Below are positions 46,961-52,139 of a DNA stretch of 64,000 nucleotides, one piece after another. Each line of letters begins with the position of its first letter. Position 1 is the first letter of the stretch. Location: assembly GCF_001571045.1 (NCBI RefSeq), contig NZ_BCSV01000006.1, forward strand, positions 62,001-126,000, in the 5' to 3' direction. The stretch is from Curtobacterium ammoniigenes NBRC 101786. Lineage in GTDB: Bacteria > Actinomycetota > Actinomycetes > Actinomycetales > Microbacteriaceae. The notes beneath the pieces are model-generated. The model made no database searches. It was given only the letters and a program-made list of their open reading frames with translations, and was not told the origin of the DNA. The translations under genes and the position numbers were made by a program.

Positions 46961-47049
46961 GGAGACGTCGCATAGTCAGGCCGAGTGCACCACCCTGCTA
47001 AGGTGGAGTCCCCTTTCGGGGACCGAGGGTTCAAATCCCTCCGTCTCCG
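46961..47049 (+). tRNA. tRNA-Ser(GCU)
   Basis: GGAGACG (46961-46967) pairs with CGTCTCC (47042-47048) and G is the discriminator. The anticodon stem CCACC-GGTGG encloses CTGCTAA, anticodon GCT. The long variable arm contains CCCCTTTCGGGG, and the T loop is GGTTCAAATCC. CCA is not encoded. Confidence 0.97.
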
Positions 47050-47069
47050 CACATAGGGGTTCGGTCCTC

Positions 47070-47222
47070 TTGCCTTTCAGTCTCGCGCTGGCGATTGCGG
47101 TCTCCGTCTGGGGATATCTGCTGCCCGCGCGGTTGGCGGCGATGGCCGGATTATGCGGCGTGGCTGGGATAGTTTTTGGGCTGCGTGATGTGGCGGCACG
47201 GCCGTTAGATGCGATGACGTGA
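47070..47222 (+). CDS. Small two-helix membrane protein after tRNA-Ser(GCU)
   Basis: A 50-residue frame from a TTG at 47070. Residues 4-19 (SLALAIAVSVWGYLLP) and 21-37 are hydrophobic; the end is polar. There is a weak purine run AGGGG upstream. No family is recognised; it could be chance. Confidence 0.35.
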   Translation: MPFSLALAIAVSVWGYLLPARLAAMAGLCGVAGIVFGLRDVAARPLDAMT

Positions 47223-47310
47223 GCGCGCGCCCGATCCGCTGTTCCATCGTTGGGGCAGCGAGGGGGTGGGAGCGGCTCACCGCAAGTGACCCCGGCGGGC
47301 AACCTCTAGC

Positions 47311-47907
47311 GGCTCTTCGCAGTTGAGGGGGTAGCGGTGGTGGTGTGAGTGGGGCGGGTCGGTCCGGGTGAACGGGGTCGAGGTCTTCCAGGATGGAAGT
47401 TCTCACACTCACCGTCCGGAAGACCTCGACGTGTCCCACGCTACCTTCGCGCCTGCTGACCTGACGACGTTCTGCCGTCTCGACGAACTCGGCCTGACCG
47501 TGGTCGGGCAACGACTCGAGCCCGACCGGGCGGTGATCGAGTGCCGGCTGACGGACCCGGATCCGTGGTGTCATCGCTGCGGTGCGCAAGCGAGGTCGCG
47601 GGGAACGCTTGCTCGTCGTCTGGCCCACGAACCGTTCGGGCATCGCCCGACGACGCTGCTGGTCCGGCTCCGGCGATACCGGTGCGATCACTGCGGACAT
47701 ACCTGGCGAGAAGCCGCCCGGCGGGCCGCGTCGGACCGGGCGAAGCTCTCCCGTGGCGGGCTGCGGTGGGCGCTGGCGTCGATCGTGATCGATCACCTCA
47801 CGGTGTCCCGGATCGCTGCCGGACTCGGGGTGTCGTGGCATACCGCGAACACCGCGGTCCTTGCCGAGGGTCGCCGGATGCTGATCGACCAGCCGGCCCG
47901 GTTCGAC
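47311..47907 (+). mobile_element. ISL3-family element, right part missing
   Basis: The left end GGCTCTTCGC at 47311 matches the ISL3 terminal type. The transposase homology stops at about 47907 where the DDE domain should begin, and no right inverted end is found. About half of a typical element remains. Confidence 0.65.
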
Positions 47908-48207
47908 ATCTCGCCGCCCGGGAAAACCTCCTGGGCCGACTTCGTCGCGGAAAAGAAGCCCGTGAACATGAACGACAAGTACGCAGTGTGCGTCCACTGG
48001 CTTCTGGACGTGGCGGAACTGCCGAAGGCGACGGTGAACCAGATCGTTACCCTATTCATCGCGGCGAGGTGGACACTTCCCAGCGACCCTCGCAACCAGA
48101 CCTCCCAGGCGAGTCGCGCTGGCTATCTGGATTCGAAAGATCTGCAGGACATCAAACTGACGTCCATGGGGTCTGCTCGGGTTCTGAACGACCTCCCGGC
48201 CAAGTAA
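47431..48207 (+). CDS. Chimeric ORF: ISL3 transposase N-terminus fused to a winged-helix-like tail
   Basis: Counting from the GTG at 47431, residues 1 to about 159 are the ISL3 N-terminal part: the zinc pattern CHRCG ... CDHCGHTW and the helix-turn-helix VSRIAAGLGVSWHTANT. After PARFD the sequence leaves the transposase family. The last 100 residues (KTSWADFVAEKKPVNMNDKY onward) form a domain with helix-rich KYAVCVHWLLDVAEL, GYLDSKDLQDIKLT and RVLNDLP. That tail parallels the N-terminal domain of the next gene. The fusion is in frame, perhaps expressed, perhaps only a scar. Confidence 0.7.
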   Translation: MSHATFAPADLTTFCRLDELGLTVVGQRLEPDRAVIECRLTDPDPWCHRCGAQARSRGTLARRLAHEPFGHRPTTLLVRLRRYRCDHCGHTWREAARRAASDRAKLSRGGLRWALASIVIDHLTVSRIAAGLGVSWHTANTAVLAEGRRMLIDQPARFDISPPGKTSWADFVAEKKPVNMNDKYAVCVHWLLDVAELPKATVNQIVTLFIAARWTLPSDPRNQTSQASRAGYLDSKDLQDIKLTSMGSARVLNDLPAK

Positions 48208-48211
48208 TCAC

Positions 48212-48961
48212 ATGAGTATGACGCTGGTCGAGTTCCTCGGCGTCGTCAAAGGACAAAAGCGCGAAACGCTCGCGCTTTCAGTTCTGTACTGGCATGAGCG
48301 GTACGGCTCGAAGCCGAGTATGACCGCAGCGAAGGTCAAATCAGCCCTCGTCCAGGCGAGGGTGGCTGGAGCGTCGAAAGCCAACGTCCCCGACGTCCTC
48401 GCTAAGGCGGGCGCCAATGTCAATGTCACCGGCAACACGCCGGGTGGGGCAAGGCGCTGGGAACTGACCGCGACAGGCCGCGCGGCGGTTCGTCTCGCGC
48501 ACGACCTGCCTGAGGCAGAGCCGGAGCTCGAGCACGGAGTTGGAGAACTCGAGAAGGTCGCCACCAAGATTGCGAACCTTGACGCCAAGAAGTTCATCCA
48601 GGAAGCGATCCAATGCTTGAGCGTCGATGCTCTCCGAGCCGCGATAGTGTTCGTATGGGTCGGCGCTATCGCGGACATAAAGGAACGGATTTGGCAGCAT
48701 GGTGCTGCCTACGCGACAACTGCCTTCCAAAAATACAACCCGAAGGCGCAGTTGAGGACGTACGATGACCTGCTCAAGTTCCAGGAGTCTGACATTCTCA
48801 ATGTCGCCCAGGATCTGGGCGTGATCGACAAGGCGCAGAAGATCGTCCTTGGGCAGGCGCTCGATCTGCGGAACCAGTGCGGTCACCCCAACAAGTACTG
48901 GCCAACCGTCGCGAAGGCGAAGGCCCACATCGAGGACATCGCTGGGATCCTCTGGGTCTAG
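48212..48961 (+). CDS. Winged-helix-like plus HEPN-like domain protein
   Basis: A 249-residue protein 4 bp behind the chimeric ORF. Residues 1-100 form a winged-helix-like domain (ETLALSVLYWHERYGSKPSM to RRWELTATGRAAVRLAHDLP). After a hinge, residues 110-249 are all-helical and contain ALDLRNQCGHPNKYW, that is R220-x4-H225 with Asn after the Arg, the HEPN ribonuclease signature. HEPN proteins cut RNA in toxin-antitoxin and anti-phage systems. That assignment is from one motif plus the helical context; no known family was recognised. Confidence 0.7.
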   Translation: MSMTLVEFLGVVKGQKRETLALSVLYWHERYGSKPSMTAAKVKSALVQARVAGASKANVPDVLAKAGANVNVTGNTPGGARRWELTATGRAAVRLAHDLPEAEPELEHGVGELEKVATKIANLDAKKFIQEAIQCLSVDALRAAIVFVWVGAIADIKERIWQHGAAYATTAFQKYNPKAQLRTYDDLLKFQESDILNVAQDLGVIDKAQKIVLGQALDLRNQCGHPNKYWPTVAKAKAHIEDIAGILWV

Positions 48962-49292
48962 GAGCTGCTCGAGGTAGAGCGCTCGATCGGGGGGCCACGA
49001 GCCTGACGGCGAGCTACAACCGCTAGCACACCCGCGTGCCGGGCCGCGCCGACGAGCTGCGGCTCGCCGTCCGTAGCGGCAGACTGCCATAGTCCGGACG
49101 GTCATCCTTACGGTCGCCGCGGAATAGTAAGGGGCTCCGTAATGTGGTCCGAGGTGAAGGGGCCATGACTCGTCCCACCGCACGGCCGGAGTTCGCGGAT
49201 TCGTGTATTAGCGTATCGGGAACCCCCACGCGAGGCATATCGGGTGCCACTGGGGGCCCGGTCGTTGTCGGATCTATGGATAAGTCGAGACC
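48962..49292. other. Gap without a recognised gene
   Basis: 331 bp with several short GC-rich dyads but no frame with a credible start. Probably decayed DNA at the edge of the accessory spot. Confidence 0.55.
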
Positions 49293-49466
49293 ATGAAACA
49301 GAATCGCGTGCGTTGGATCCTCGGGTTCACCGGTCTCGGGATCATGTGCACTGGGATCGTCTTGTCGGTCCTGATTCCACCCACTCATTACTTCTTCGCA
49401 CTGTTCATGTTTGCAGGGGGAGTCTGCGAAGCAAGCGCGCTCACAGTGAGGTCACGGGAGCGATAA
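49293..49466 (+). CDS. Small two-helix membrane protein
   Basis: A 57-residue frame from the ATG at 49293. It starts MKQNRVRW, then helix 1 (ILGFTGLGIMCTGIVLSVLI), the turn PPTHY, and helix 2 (FFALFMFAGGVCEASAL), with a basic end. The positive-inside pattern is consistent with both ends in the cytoplasm. No family is recognised. Confidence 0.5.
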   Translation: MKQNRVRWILGFTGLGIMCTGIVLSVLIPPTHYFFALFMFAGGVCEASALTVRSRER

Positions 49467-49783
49467 GCGGCAGGGGTCGAGAGTCCTTACTCGCCGATGA
49501 GGCCCGCCAGCCGGTGCGTTCCTTGACGGCCGAGTCCATTGCGGCGGCCGAAAAGCGGTAAGCGTTCGCCGCGCTTTTATCTTGCTCGGGCGGCCACTCA
49601 TCCACGGGCCCGGGAACTACCGGTACAGCTCGAACGGGCTGAATGCTAACGCCGGCTTCGCGGCGGTGTCGGTCTCGCGCTAGCCGCCCGTCGCCGCCAT
49701 CAGCCCGGCCGCCCGCCGGAGCGCTGTCACCTGGCGGAGGTAGCATGCGCGAACACGTCCATCCGCGTTGAGGAGGTCCCGGC
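49467..49783. other. Intergenic region upstream of the MoxR operon, with one hairpin
   Basis: 317 bp without a supported gene. AAAAGCG at 49551-49557 and CGCTTTT at 49572-49578 form a hairpin flanked by A and T runs, a plausible bidirectional terminator for the small gene upstream. The operon promoter should lie to its right. Confidence 0.5.
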
Positions 49784-50858: not shown

Positions 50859-52139
50859 GTGTCCAGACCCACCGGATCACGTCGGACGCGAGACATCCCT
50901 GTCCCGCGTCCGACCGCGCGCGGGTGGGCGCTGCTCGGTGTCGGCGTCGGCCTAGTCGCGGCTGGACTCATCGTCACGATGGGTGTCGTCATCACCGCGG
51001 GCCTGCTTCTCGTGTTCCTCGATGTCGCAGGAGTGGTCGTCGCCTTGAGTGTCGCCGCCCCGCTCCGAGCGGATCGGCGCATCAGCCGCGCGGTTGTCGA
51101 AGTCGGCGACATTCACCGCGAGCGCATCGAGCTCGTCGGCCTCCGCGCACGCCTCGCACCGACCGTCTCGGTGCACGTCCACGAAAGCATGAGTCCGCAG
51201 CTGACCGGACTCGCTGAGGCTGCCGCGACCGTGACGATCGGCCCGAACCGGCCGCCCGCACGACTCGAATTCGAAGCGCTCGCTGTGCAGCGCGGCATCG
51301 CATCCGTGGGGCCGTTGCGCGTTCGCGTAGTCGATCCCTTCGGCCTCGTGCGCGTCGACCGCTCCGCACTCCGCCCGACCGAGGTTGTCGTCGTTCCGCG
51401 CGGGGCGAACGTTGGCACCATCGACACCGGCGCCCTCGCCGGCGCGGTGTCCGCGGATCAGGGGCGCGTCGGTCAGGGTGGTTCCGCGGATGACAGCGAG
51501 CTCCGTCCGTACCGCCCAGGCGACCCGATCCGTCGGGTGCACTGGGCGCAGAGCGCGCGCCGGGGCGAACTGCACGTCCGCCAGACCACGCAAGCACAGC
51601 CTCCGGAGGCCGTGGTGGCCCTGGATCTCCGGCCGTCGGTCTACCAGGACCTCGGCCGGGATGATCTCTCAGAGCTCGCGGACATCGACGGACTCGTGGC
51701 GTTCGAGCACGCGGTCGTCGTCGCCGCCGGTGTGGCGCGGCAGCTCGCGGCCCGCGCCTCGCACGTCACGCTCGTGGCCGACGACGCTGCGGCAGGTCCG
51801 GAGCGGCCGCGCGGCGGGTCGGGACTTCAGGAGGCGCTCGTCGAGTTGGCGACCGTCCAGCCGCACACAGCTTCCAGCCCGCCTGAGACGATGCTCGCCG
51901 CGGCCGCCGCGCGGGGCCTCAGCGGAATGACAGCAGTGATCACCGGCCATTGCAGCGAGCACGAGGCGCTCGCGCTCGTCGGCCAAGGACAGCGAGGAGC
52001 ACGCGGCCTGTTCGTCTCGATCGTTCCGCCATCCGGCGTCGTGCGCGGGATCTTCGAGCGCGCCGGGTGGCGGGTGATCACCGTGCCGGTGCCTGCCGGC
52101 GCCCACGGTCATCGCGGACACCGTCGGAGTGCATCATGA
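50859..52139 (+). CDS. DUF58 domain membrane protein
   Basis: A 426-residue protein from the GTG at 50859. Two helices (GWALLGVGVGLVAAGLIVTM and the next) are followed by a soluble domain with the DUF58 motif ELRPYRPGDPIRRVHWAQSAR and a vWA-like fold. It is the usual partner of MoxR. The stop overlaps the next start (ATGA). Confidence 0.9.
   Translation: MSRPTGSRRTRDIPVPRPTARGWALLGVGVGLVAAGLIVTMGVVITAGLLLVFLDVAGVVVALSVAAPLRADRRISRAVVEVGDIHRERIELVGLRARLAPTVSVHVHESMSPQLTGLAEAAATVTIGPNRPPARLEFEALAVQRGIASVGPLRVRVVDPFGLVRVDRSALRPTEVVVVPRGANVGTIDTGALAGAVSADQGRVGQGGSADDSELRPYRPGDPIRRVHWAQSARRGELHVRQTTQAQPPEAVVALDLRPSVYQDLGRDDLSELADIDGLVAFEHAVVVAAGVARQLAARASHVTLVADDAAAGPERPRGGSGLQEALVELATVQPHTASSPPETMLAAAAARGLSGMTAVITGHCSEHEALALVGQGQRGARGLFVSIVPPSGVVRGIFERAGWRVITVPVPAGAHGHRGHRRSAS

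Follow-up and report, generated by a model that had tools for sequence, protein, structure and literature searches.

A candidate two-gene HEPN module with a winged-helix partner, truncated beside an insertion sequence remnant in Curtobacterium ammoniigenes

Gene B and its surroundings

There is an intact ORF on the forward strand at positions 48212-48961 of the window, which is the whole stretch of 64,000 nucleotides that was analysed. This gene, here called B, begins with ATG, is free of internal stops and encodes a protein of 249 amino acids, for which the ORF, a predicted model and a family alignment indicate a winged-helix domain followed by a HEPN domain. The winged-helix domain covers residues 14-101 (48251-48514, forward strand) according to the model and VIA-align. 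The HEPN domain covers residues 121-249 (48572-48958, forward strand) according to the same two sources and profile comparisons, and it includes a motif, R220-N-Q-C-G-H225-P226 (48869-48889, forward strand), that is recognised by its conservation among full-length relatives.

An earlier note, made from the DNA letters alone, placed B in an accessory position beyond a tRNA gene and beside an IS scar, and both observations hold. A gene for tRNA-Ser(gct) is located at 46961-47050 (forward strand), at the edge of a stretch that reaches to a MoxR-like AAA gene (46961-49783 in the window) and that varies in length and content across the genus. Among the 18 of 20 other genus genomes that were read upstream of the MoxR gene, 14 carry tRNA-Ser(gct) within about 8 kb of it, at distances of 0.24 to 7.8 kb; the distance in the window is 2.8 kb. 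In two genomes (L112 and L114) the order of MFS, GntR-like and tRNA-Ser genes is, by eye, that of the window, with a different gene in place of the insert. No 12-mer of the tRNA gene is repeated between it and position 52000, as might mark an integration event.

The IS scar is the left end of an ISL3-family element (47307-47906, forward strand), which matches the left ends of two copies in the same genome (L095 and L096) at 74%. Its terminal repeat (about 47307-47341) is present on the left side only, the transposase starts with GTG at 47431, and the right end is missing. About 158 amino acids of transposase remain, compared with 436 in the two other copies. The remnant matches Pfam Zn_ribbon_ISL3 above the cut-off and NCBIfam transpos_ISL3 at 1.7e-24, the latter below the full-length cut-off, as is expected for a fragment.

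Immediately downstream lies the C-terminal remnant of a second gene, here called A (47917-48207, forward strand). It encodes about 97 amino acids of a winged helix that are 46-53% identical to intact A proteins (L010, L011, L012, L118 and L119), and the tag and linker that precede this domain elsewhere are gone. Similarity to the IS ends at 47906 and similarity to A begins at about 47917 (protein) or 47929 (DNA), a junction most simply explained, we infer, by insertion of the element and a later deletion next to it. An open frame of 279 amino acids (47368-48207, forward strand) joins the start of the transposase to the A remnant, contains no stops and ends 4 bp before B. The GC content of the A remnant and B is 0.60, compared with 0.67 for the window. 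What the earlier note overlooked is that the ORF 5' of B is a fusion, with the IS remnant and what is left of a partner gene in one reading frame.

The predicted HEPN domain and its motif

An AlphaFold2 model of B, based on an alignment of 7 sequences, has a mean pLDDT of 87 and a pTM of 0.56. In this prediction the domains are good and their mutual placement is uncertain. The front of the model has a winged-helix pattern, and VIA-align matches it to winged-helix regulators with Z about 9, in agreement with the winged helix suggested earlier. The rear is all-helical, as had also been noted, with R220 within the helix formed by residues 207-223 and H225 immediately past it.

The best VIA-align match of the rear domain is 2hsb (Z 11.6, rmsd 2.6, 107 residues), followed among HEPN entries by HepT 7bxo (9.7), HI0074 (9.5), SO_3166 (9.3), TT1696 (9.3), an AMPylated HEPN toxin (8.7) and AbiA (8.6), where Z values under about 13 for helical bundles are not decisive and may reflect a common arrangement. 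We take the HI0074, TT1696 and AbiA chains to be HEPN folds. Roquin ROQ domains are interspersed in the same ranking, with one in the second row (Z 10.3) and three more lower. A search of the PDB and BFVD with Foldseek gave nothing below E 0.001. Independently of structure matching, hmmsearch with the B family profile recovers PDB entry 9wx2 ('Dandelion-hepn') at E 0.0054, and R220 and H225 align with its R-x4-H-P. Pfam, NCBIfam and the phage collection hold no family and no phage record matching B, and PHROGs holds one, phrog_27609 (unknown function; E 1e-7), across the HEPN part. On the model and these comparisons we assign the rear domain to the HEPN fold as the earlier note did, with the same caution that applies to helical bundles.

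Searches recovered 11 full-length representatives of B. In addition to the window, they are found in Microbacterium (L010, 82% identical to the window protein), a Cellulomonas MAG (L011, 71%), Microbacterium bovistercoris (L012, 68%), a Terriglobia MAG (L013, 42%), two viral contigs (L023, 44%; L042), and genomes G321 (42%), G120 (39%), G445 (35%) and G796. Full-length matches are rare, occurring in 3 of 398 genomes of the family, 2 of 394 of the class and 3 of 396 of the phylum, with the window genome counted each time.

The segment R220-NQCG-H225 is the sole R-x4-H in the protein, as the earlier note had read it. Composition-preserving shuffles of B contain R-x4-H in 23% of cases and R-N-x3-H in 0.9%. 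Thus, the motif alone is weak and the weight is carried by its conservation. The earlier note had staked its claim beforehand on whether R220 and H225 are kept in homologues and whether the fold is HEPN, and the claim withstood both checks, with the caution on helical bundles given above. The two residues are present in all 11 full-length members (nine of nine in the main alignment, plus the L042 and L045 sequences), as are the N and the P, and the G is replaced by A in one.

Similar motifs are found beyond the full-length family. Seven shorter HEPN relatives of 177-188 amino acids (L027-L032 and L046) all carry R-N-x-C-(G/A)-H-P, and six of them match the HEPN domain of B with an hhalign probability of 99.7. 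Among 19 plasmid relatives, the six that were analysed are 432-465 amino acids long and all have R-x4-H-P, which begins with R-N in five and R-H in one. The HEPN matches in G017, G340, G494, G632, G687, G713, G833 and G1131 were set aside from the survey of partner genes below.

These observations suggest that B is most likely a HEPN-type endoribonuclease, a function we assign from the predicted fold and the conserved motif. The protein might instead be a nucleic-acid-binding regulator that has kept the HEPN fold and lost RNA cutting. The winged helix at its front would suit such a role, and inactive HEPN families, or ones that have no such motif, are described by Anantharaman et al. (2013, PMC3710099). 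However, R, N, H and P are invariant among representatives as little as 35% and up to 82% identical to the window protein (the range of the eight others in the main alignment), and a role for the fold only would not need them. We therefore consider a non-cutting B improbable.

The partner gene and the two-gene arrangement

A gene on the same strand is located directly upstream of B in all 11 full-length cases, either overlapping it or within 12 bp, and only that of the window is truncated. The overlap is 4 bp in seven (L011, L012, L013, L023, G321, G120 and G445) and 23 bp in L042, and gaps of 12, 9 and 4 bp separate the genes in L010, G796 and the window, taking the likeliest start codon where several fit. 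In other words, B is the downstream member of a module of two genes; this is the main point that the earlier note overlooked. Its reading of B as an effector that acts alone, with a built-in sensor, is not supported in that form.

Intact A partners are 148-216 amino acids long. The one partner that was modelled (L012) is predicted to begin with a helix pair, at a low pLDDT of 52-65, and to continue through a disordered linker, where pLDDT is 29-50, into a winged helix that has pLDDT of about 85 and resembles MntR (VIA Z 8.8). The predicted helical tag is about 40 amino acids long. A probable relationship between the winged helices of the two proteins is indicated by an hhalign probability of 93 (E 3e-7), compared with 0.1 and 0.4 for two control pairs; with fewer sequences, an earlier profile comparison had reached only 57 (E 1e-4).

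The relationship among partners is less uniform. Between two A groups, the tags score 90. There is no match between the winged helix of group A2 and that of B (2.4) or A (0.9), nor between the tags of A1 and A3 (2.7) or A2 and A3 (13), and neither the winged helix of the L013 and L023 partners nor the tag of the G321 and G120 partners gives a profile match. Thus, the partners may be one family or several families of one plan, with those of L042 and G796 standing outside the comparison. A-type proteins match no Pfam family above the cut-off and, where scanned, nothing in PADLOC. The Pfam scan, which covered the partners in L010, L013, G445, L042, G796, L118, L119 and G321 and the extra gene of L011, and left out A of L011, L012 and L023 and the G120 partner, gave no match to PF17278 or to a nucleotidyltransferase.

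The C-terminal part of A is 45-56% identical among the four closest relatives, versus 64-75% for the winged helix of B and 72-85% for its HEPN domain. This part of A diverges faster than B in six of six pairs, and the winged helix of B faster than the HEPN domain in five of six. Rapid change of A would be expected if A meets phage molecules.

When 339 genomes of the family were searched with A, two (G058 and G268) proved to carry it intact, in addition to the remnant in the window; weaker matches in eight more genomes were left out of the analysis. B is absent from both, even at E 1. Instead, A closes a three-gene set, X-Y-A (L118:192-2055 and L119:188-2085). By eye, X and A share one plan. 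The winged helix of X matches that of B at 85 and that of A at only 6.6, and its tag reaches a borderline 49 against that of A1, with no match to A2 (0.9) or A3 (0.3). The X protein begins with a 'LEPEQQVRVLRWAADRYG' tag. In G058 the set adjoins a phage tape-measure gene, with a primase-polymerase gene near.

The Y protein has 253 amino acids and carries 'IRNNRGVGH', which is possibly a HEPN-like R-x6-H, a by-eye reading that neither libraries nor profiles confirm. Y was considered as a relative of the HEPN domain of B and rejected (hhalign 0.1). It has no PDB match and no viral relative, and none of the 11 genomes or records with B contains a match to it. The X-Y-A set has no Pfam family above the cut-off and no strong PADLOC match (X matches LmuC at E 0.02-0.04). 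From these gene neighbours, A may be an exchangeable adaptor that accompanies B or, in two genomes, Y.

In the window, an ISL3 remnant stands in place of the A tag and linker, and therefore the two genes of this strain probably no longer work as a module, being uncoupled or dead, with B still an open frame. At E 0.001, the remnant is the only A match in the window genome. Among B of the window, L010, L011 and L012, the number of sites unique to one protein is 18 in the window, 6 in L010 (p 0.02 for these two), 15 in L011 and 22 in L012. Changes at codon positions 1 and 2 relative to position 3 number 27:24 in the window and 8:20 in L010 (p 0.057). Enrichment of the unique window changes in the winged helix has p 0.15, and pairwise dN/dS between window and L010 is 0.08, with dS near saturation. 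The unique changes fit relaxed selection on B in the window strain but fall short of proving it.

Perhaps, rather than damage, the junction has created a working rewired regulator of B, in which the DNA-binding part of the transposase replaces the A tag. The in-frame join and the stop-free frame that ends just before B would agree with this. However, an in-frame join has a one-in-three chance of arising, it is seen in one genome only, and the excess of unique changes in B over L010 is compatible with relaxation. We regard this as highly improbable.

Possible mode of action and known systems

HEPN RNases are common weapons of bacterial immunity and, to our knowledge, how they are restrained and triggered is known for few. 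The reading that we favour, with slightly better than even confidence, is that A and B form an abortive-infection module borne by phages and islands, with B as the presumed HEPN RNase effector and A as its adaptor. This draws on computed features, namely the predicted fold, the conserved R and H, the operon structure, the likely winged-helix kinship, the phage context and the occurrence of A beside a different neighbour in two genomes. RNase activity, complex formation, trigger and defence are what we infer from them for the module.

In such a module, A and B would be made together through coupled translation and would form a complex via their winged helices in which the HEPN dimer is kept inactive. 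Perhaps, on contact of A with a phage product or with nucleic acid that the phage has altered, the HEPN dimer would be released and would cut cellular RNA, so that growth stops. A frequent target of HEPN proteins is tRNA. An intact B in the window is a point against this explanation, because it is unexpected if a strong RNase was set free once A was lost.

The genomic setting gives the defence link suggested in the earlier note partial support. On viral contig L023 the tail, endolysin and SSB genes are encoded on one strand and the pair on the other, and on L042 it lies between capsid and head-tail genes, also on the opposite strand. An Abi_alpha gene (1.3e-7) is located downstream of the L010 pair, and the L046 pair is beside an HhH-GPD glycosylase gene and, by eye, a cytosine-methyltransferase-like gene. 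No recognised defence gene is found beside the pair at the other A-B loci, where few neighbours were scanned.

Further support comes from kinship to PD-T7-3, an experimentally found system that protects against phages (Vassallo et al. 2022, PMC9519451) and is listed under HEPN in PMC10952713. All three plasmid relatives of B that were tested match the PADLOC PD-T7-3 model at 8e-26 to 1e-36, with L036 and L038 matching over most of the chain and L040 over residues 6-165. The L040 gene adjoins an annotated Wadjet gene. PD-T7-3 and B thus share a related HEPN domain with R-x4-H-P. However, the match of B itself to this model is confined to positions 5-51 of 432 (E 8e-4), and the plasmid proteins are single chains of 432-465 amino acids with the HEPN domain first, whereas B has the winged helix first and the HEPN domain last and is accompanied by a second gene. 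We would guess that 'Dandelion' (9wx2) is a PD-T7-3 relative; the word is absent from the literature searched.

A plain toxin-antitoxin system is a competing explanation, wherein A would be a winged-helix antitoxin and autorepressor, B would be the RNase toxin, and the pair would be selected for maintenance of the element and not for phage defence. The order of partner then effector, the frequent 4-bp overlap, the disordered linker and DNA-binding-like domain of A and the presence of pairs on phage contigs are all what such a system would show. However, B carries its own winged helix, and A is also found beside a different protein, Y. Moreover, B of the window remains open with both motif residues though the front half of A is lost and no second copy was found. 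We consider this explanation rather unlikely. The HEPN-MNT type VII toxin-antitoxin system (HepT-MntA) resembles B in having a HEPN fold of comparable size (7bxo). Its partner is a nucleotidyltransferase, whereas the partner of B is a predicted tag-linker-winged-helix protein.

A closer analogy for the favoured abortive-infection module is the type IX retron. In retron-Kva2, according to a 2026 preprint (PMC13405049), a HEPN dimer is caged by a winged-helix protein together with the reverse transcriptase and msDNA, until a phage protein releases it to degrade tRNA. A-B likewise would combine a HEPN protein and a winged-helix protein in one operon, with the HEPN protein presumably inactive until a phage trigger, a likeness drawn from descriptions. 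The systems differ in that B has a winged helix of its own joined to the HEPN domain, and in the canonical R-x4-H of B, a motif that the authors did not find in the Kva2 HEPN protein (PMC13405049). The motif difference also bears on another idea, which the shared pairing of HEPN and winged-helix proteins might suggest, namely that A-B belongs to a type IX retron, or is left over from one, with the reverse transcriptase and ncRNA encoded elsewhere. RVT_1 was not found near the pair in any of 17 genomes or records holding B or a shorter HEPN relative, being absent from 15 and on other contigs in 2. We give this idea almost no credence.

These comparisons allow a broader proposal, which we advance tentatively and rate somewhat below an even chance. 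There may be a class of phage-borne immune modules in which different HEPN-type RNases (B and the unrelated-looking Y) are served by small exchangeable adaptors composed of helical tag, disordered linker and winged helix. Such modules would work in a manner like type IX retrons and sense infection without reverse transcriptase or msDNA. The window strain would then represent a case in which the adaptor tag has been cut off. A compact pair of RNase and adaptor that lacks a reverse transcriptase would be a simple system for learning how a HEPN dimer is caged by winged-helix proteins. The A adaptors, which matched no Pfam family above the cut-off where scanned, could be used as bait for further systems.

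No description of the A-B pair or the B family was found in the searched databases and literature, whose coverage excludes most subscription journals. The HEPN-fold B family is real, its partner is conserved, and the two appear to constitute a so far undescribed variant of HEPN system. The suggestion of an undescribed effector in the earlier note stands to this extent, with the amendments that B is part of a two-gene module and that the window copy may not work because its partner is truncated.

Other genes accompany some of the pairs. A second tag-linker-type gene (L011:4522-5148) is located upstream of A-B and is about 30% identical to the G321 and G120 partners. In G321 and G120 a gene downstream of B (L024:6607-7473, 288 amino acids; L025:6542-7315, 257 amino acids) has a similar end, 'KALAPVL..AIAN.QGFEF', in both. 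It has no Pfam match in G321 and no PADLOC match in G120, and is a possible third component.

An overlapping upstream gene likewise accompanies six of the seven shorter HEPN relatives, L032 being the exception. In L030 and L031 this gene encodes DUF5343 (PF17278; PADLOC candidate PDC-M34A), which is not found mentioned in the searched literature. These pairs resemble A-B in that an overlapping upstream gene is followed by a B-related HEPN gene. They differ in that the HEPN gene lacks a winged helix, and a profile comparison of the alignment containing DUF5343 with A gave no clear match (probability 7). In L027-L029, the gene overlapping upstream of the HEPN gene ends in a conserved 'HIAADATADTVREIFKNM'-like stretch.
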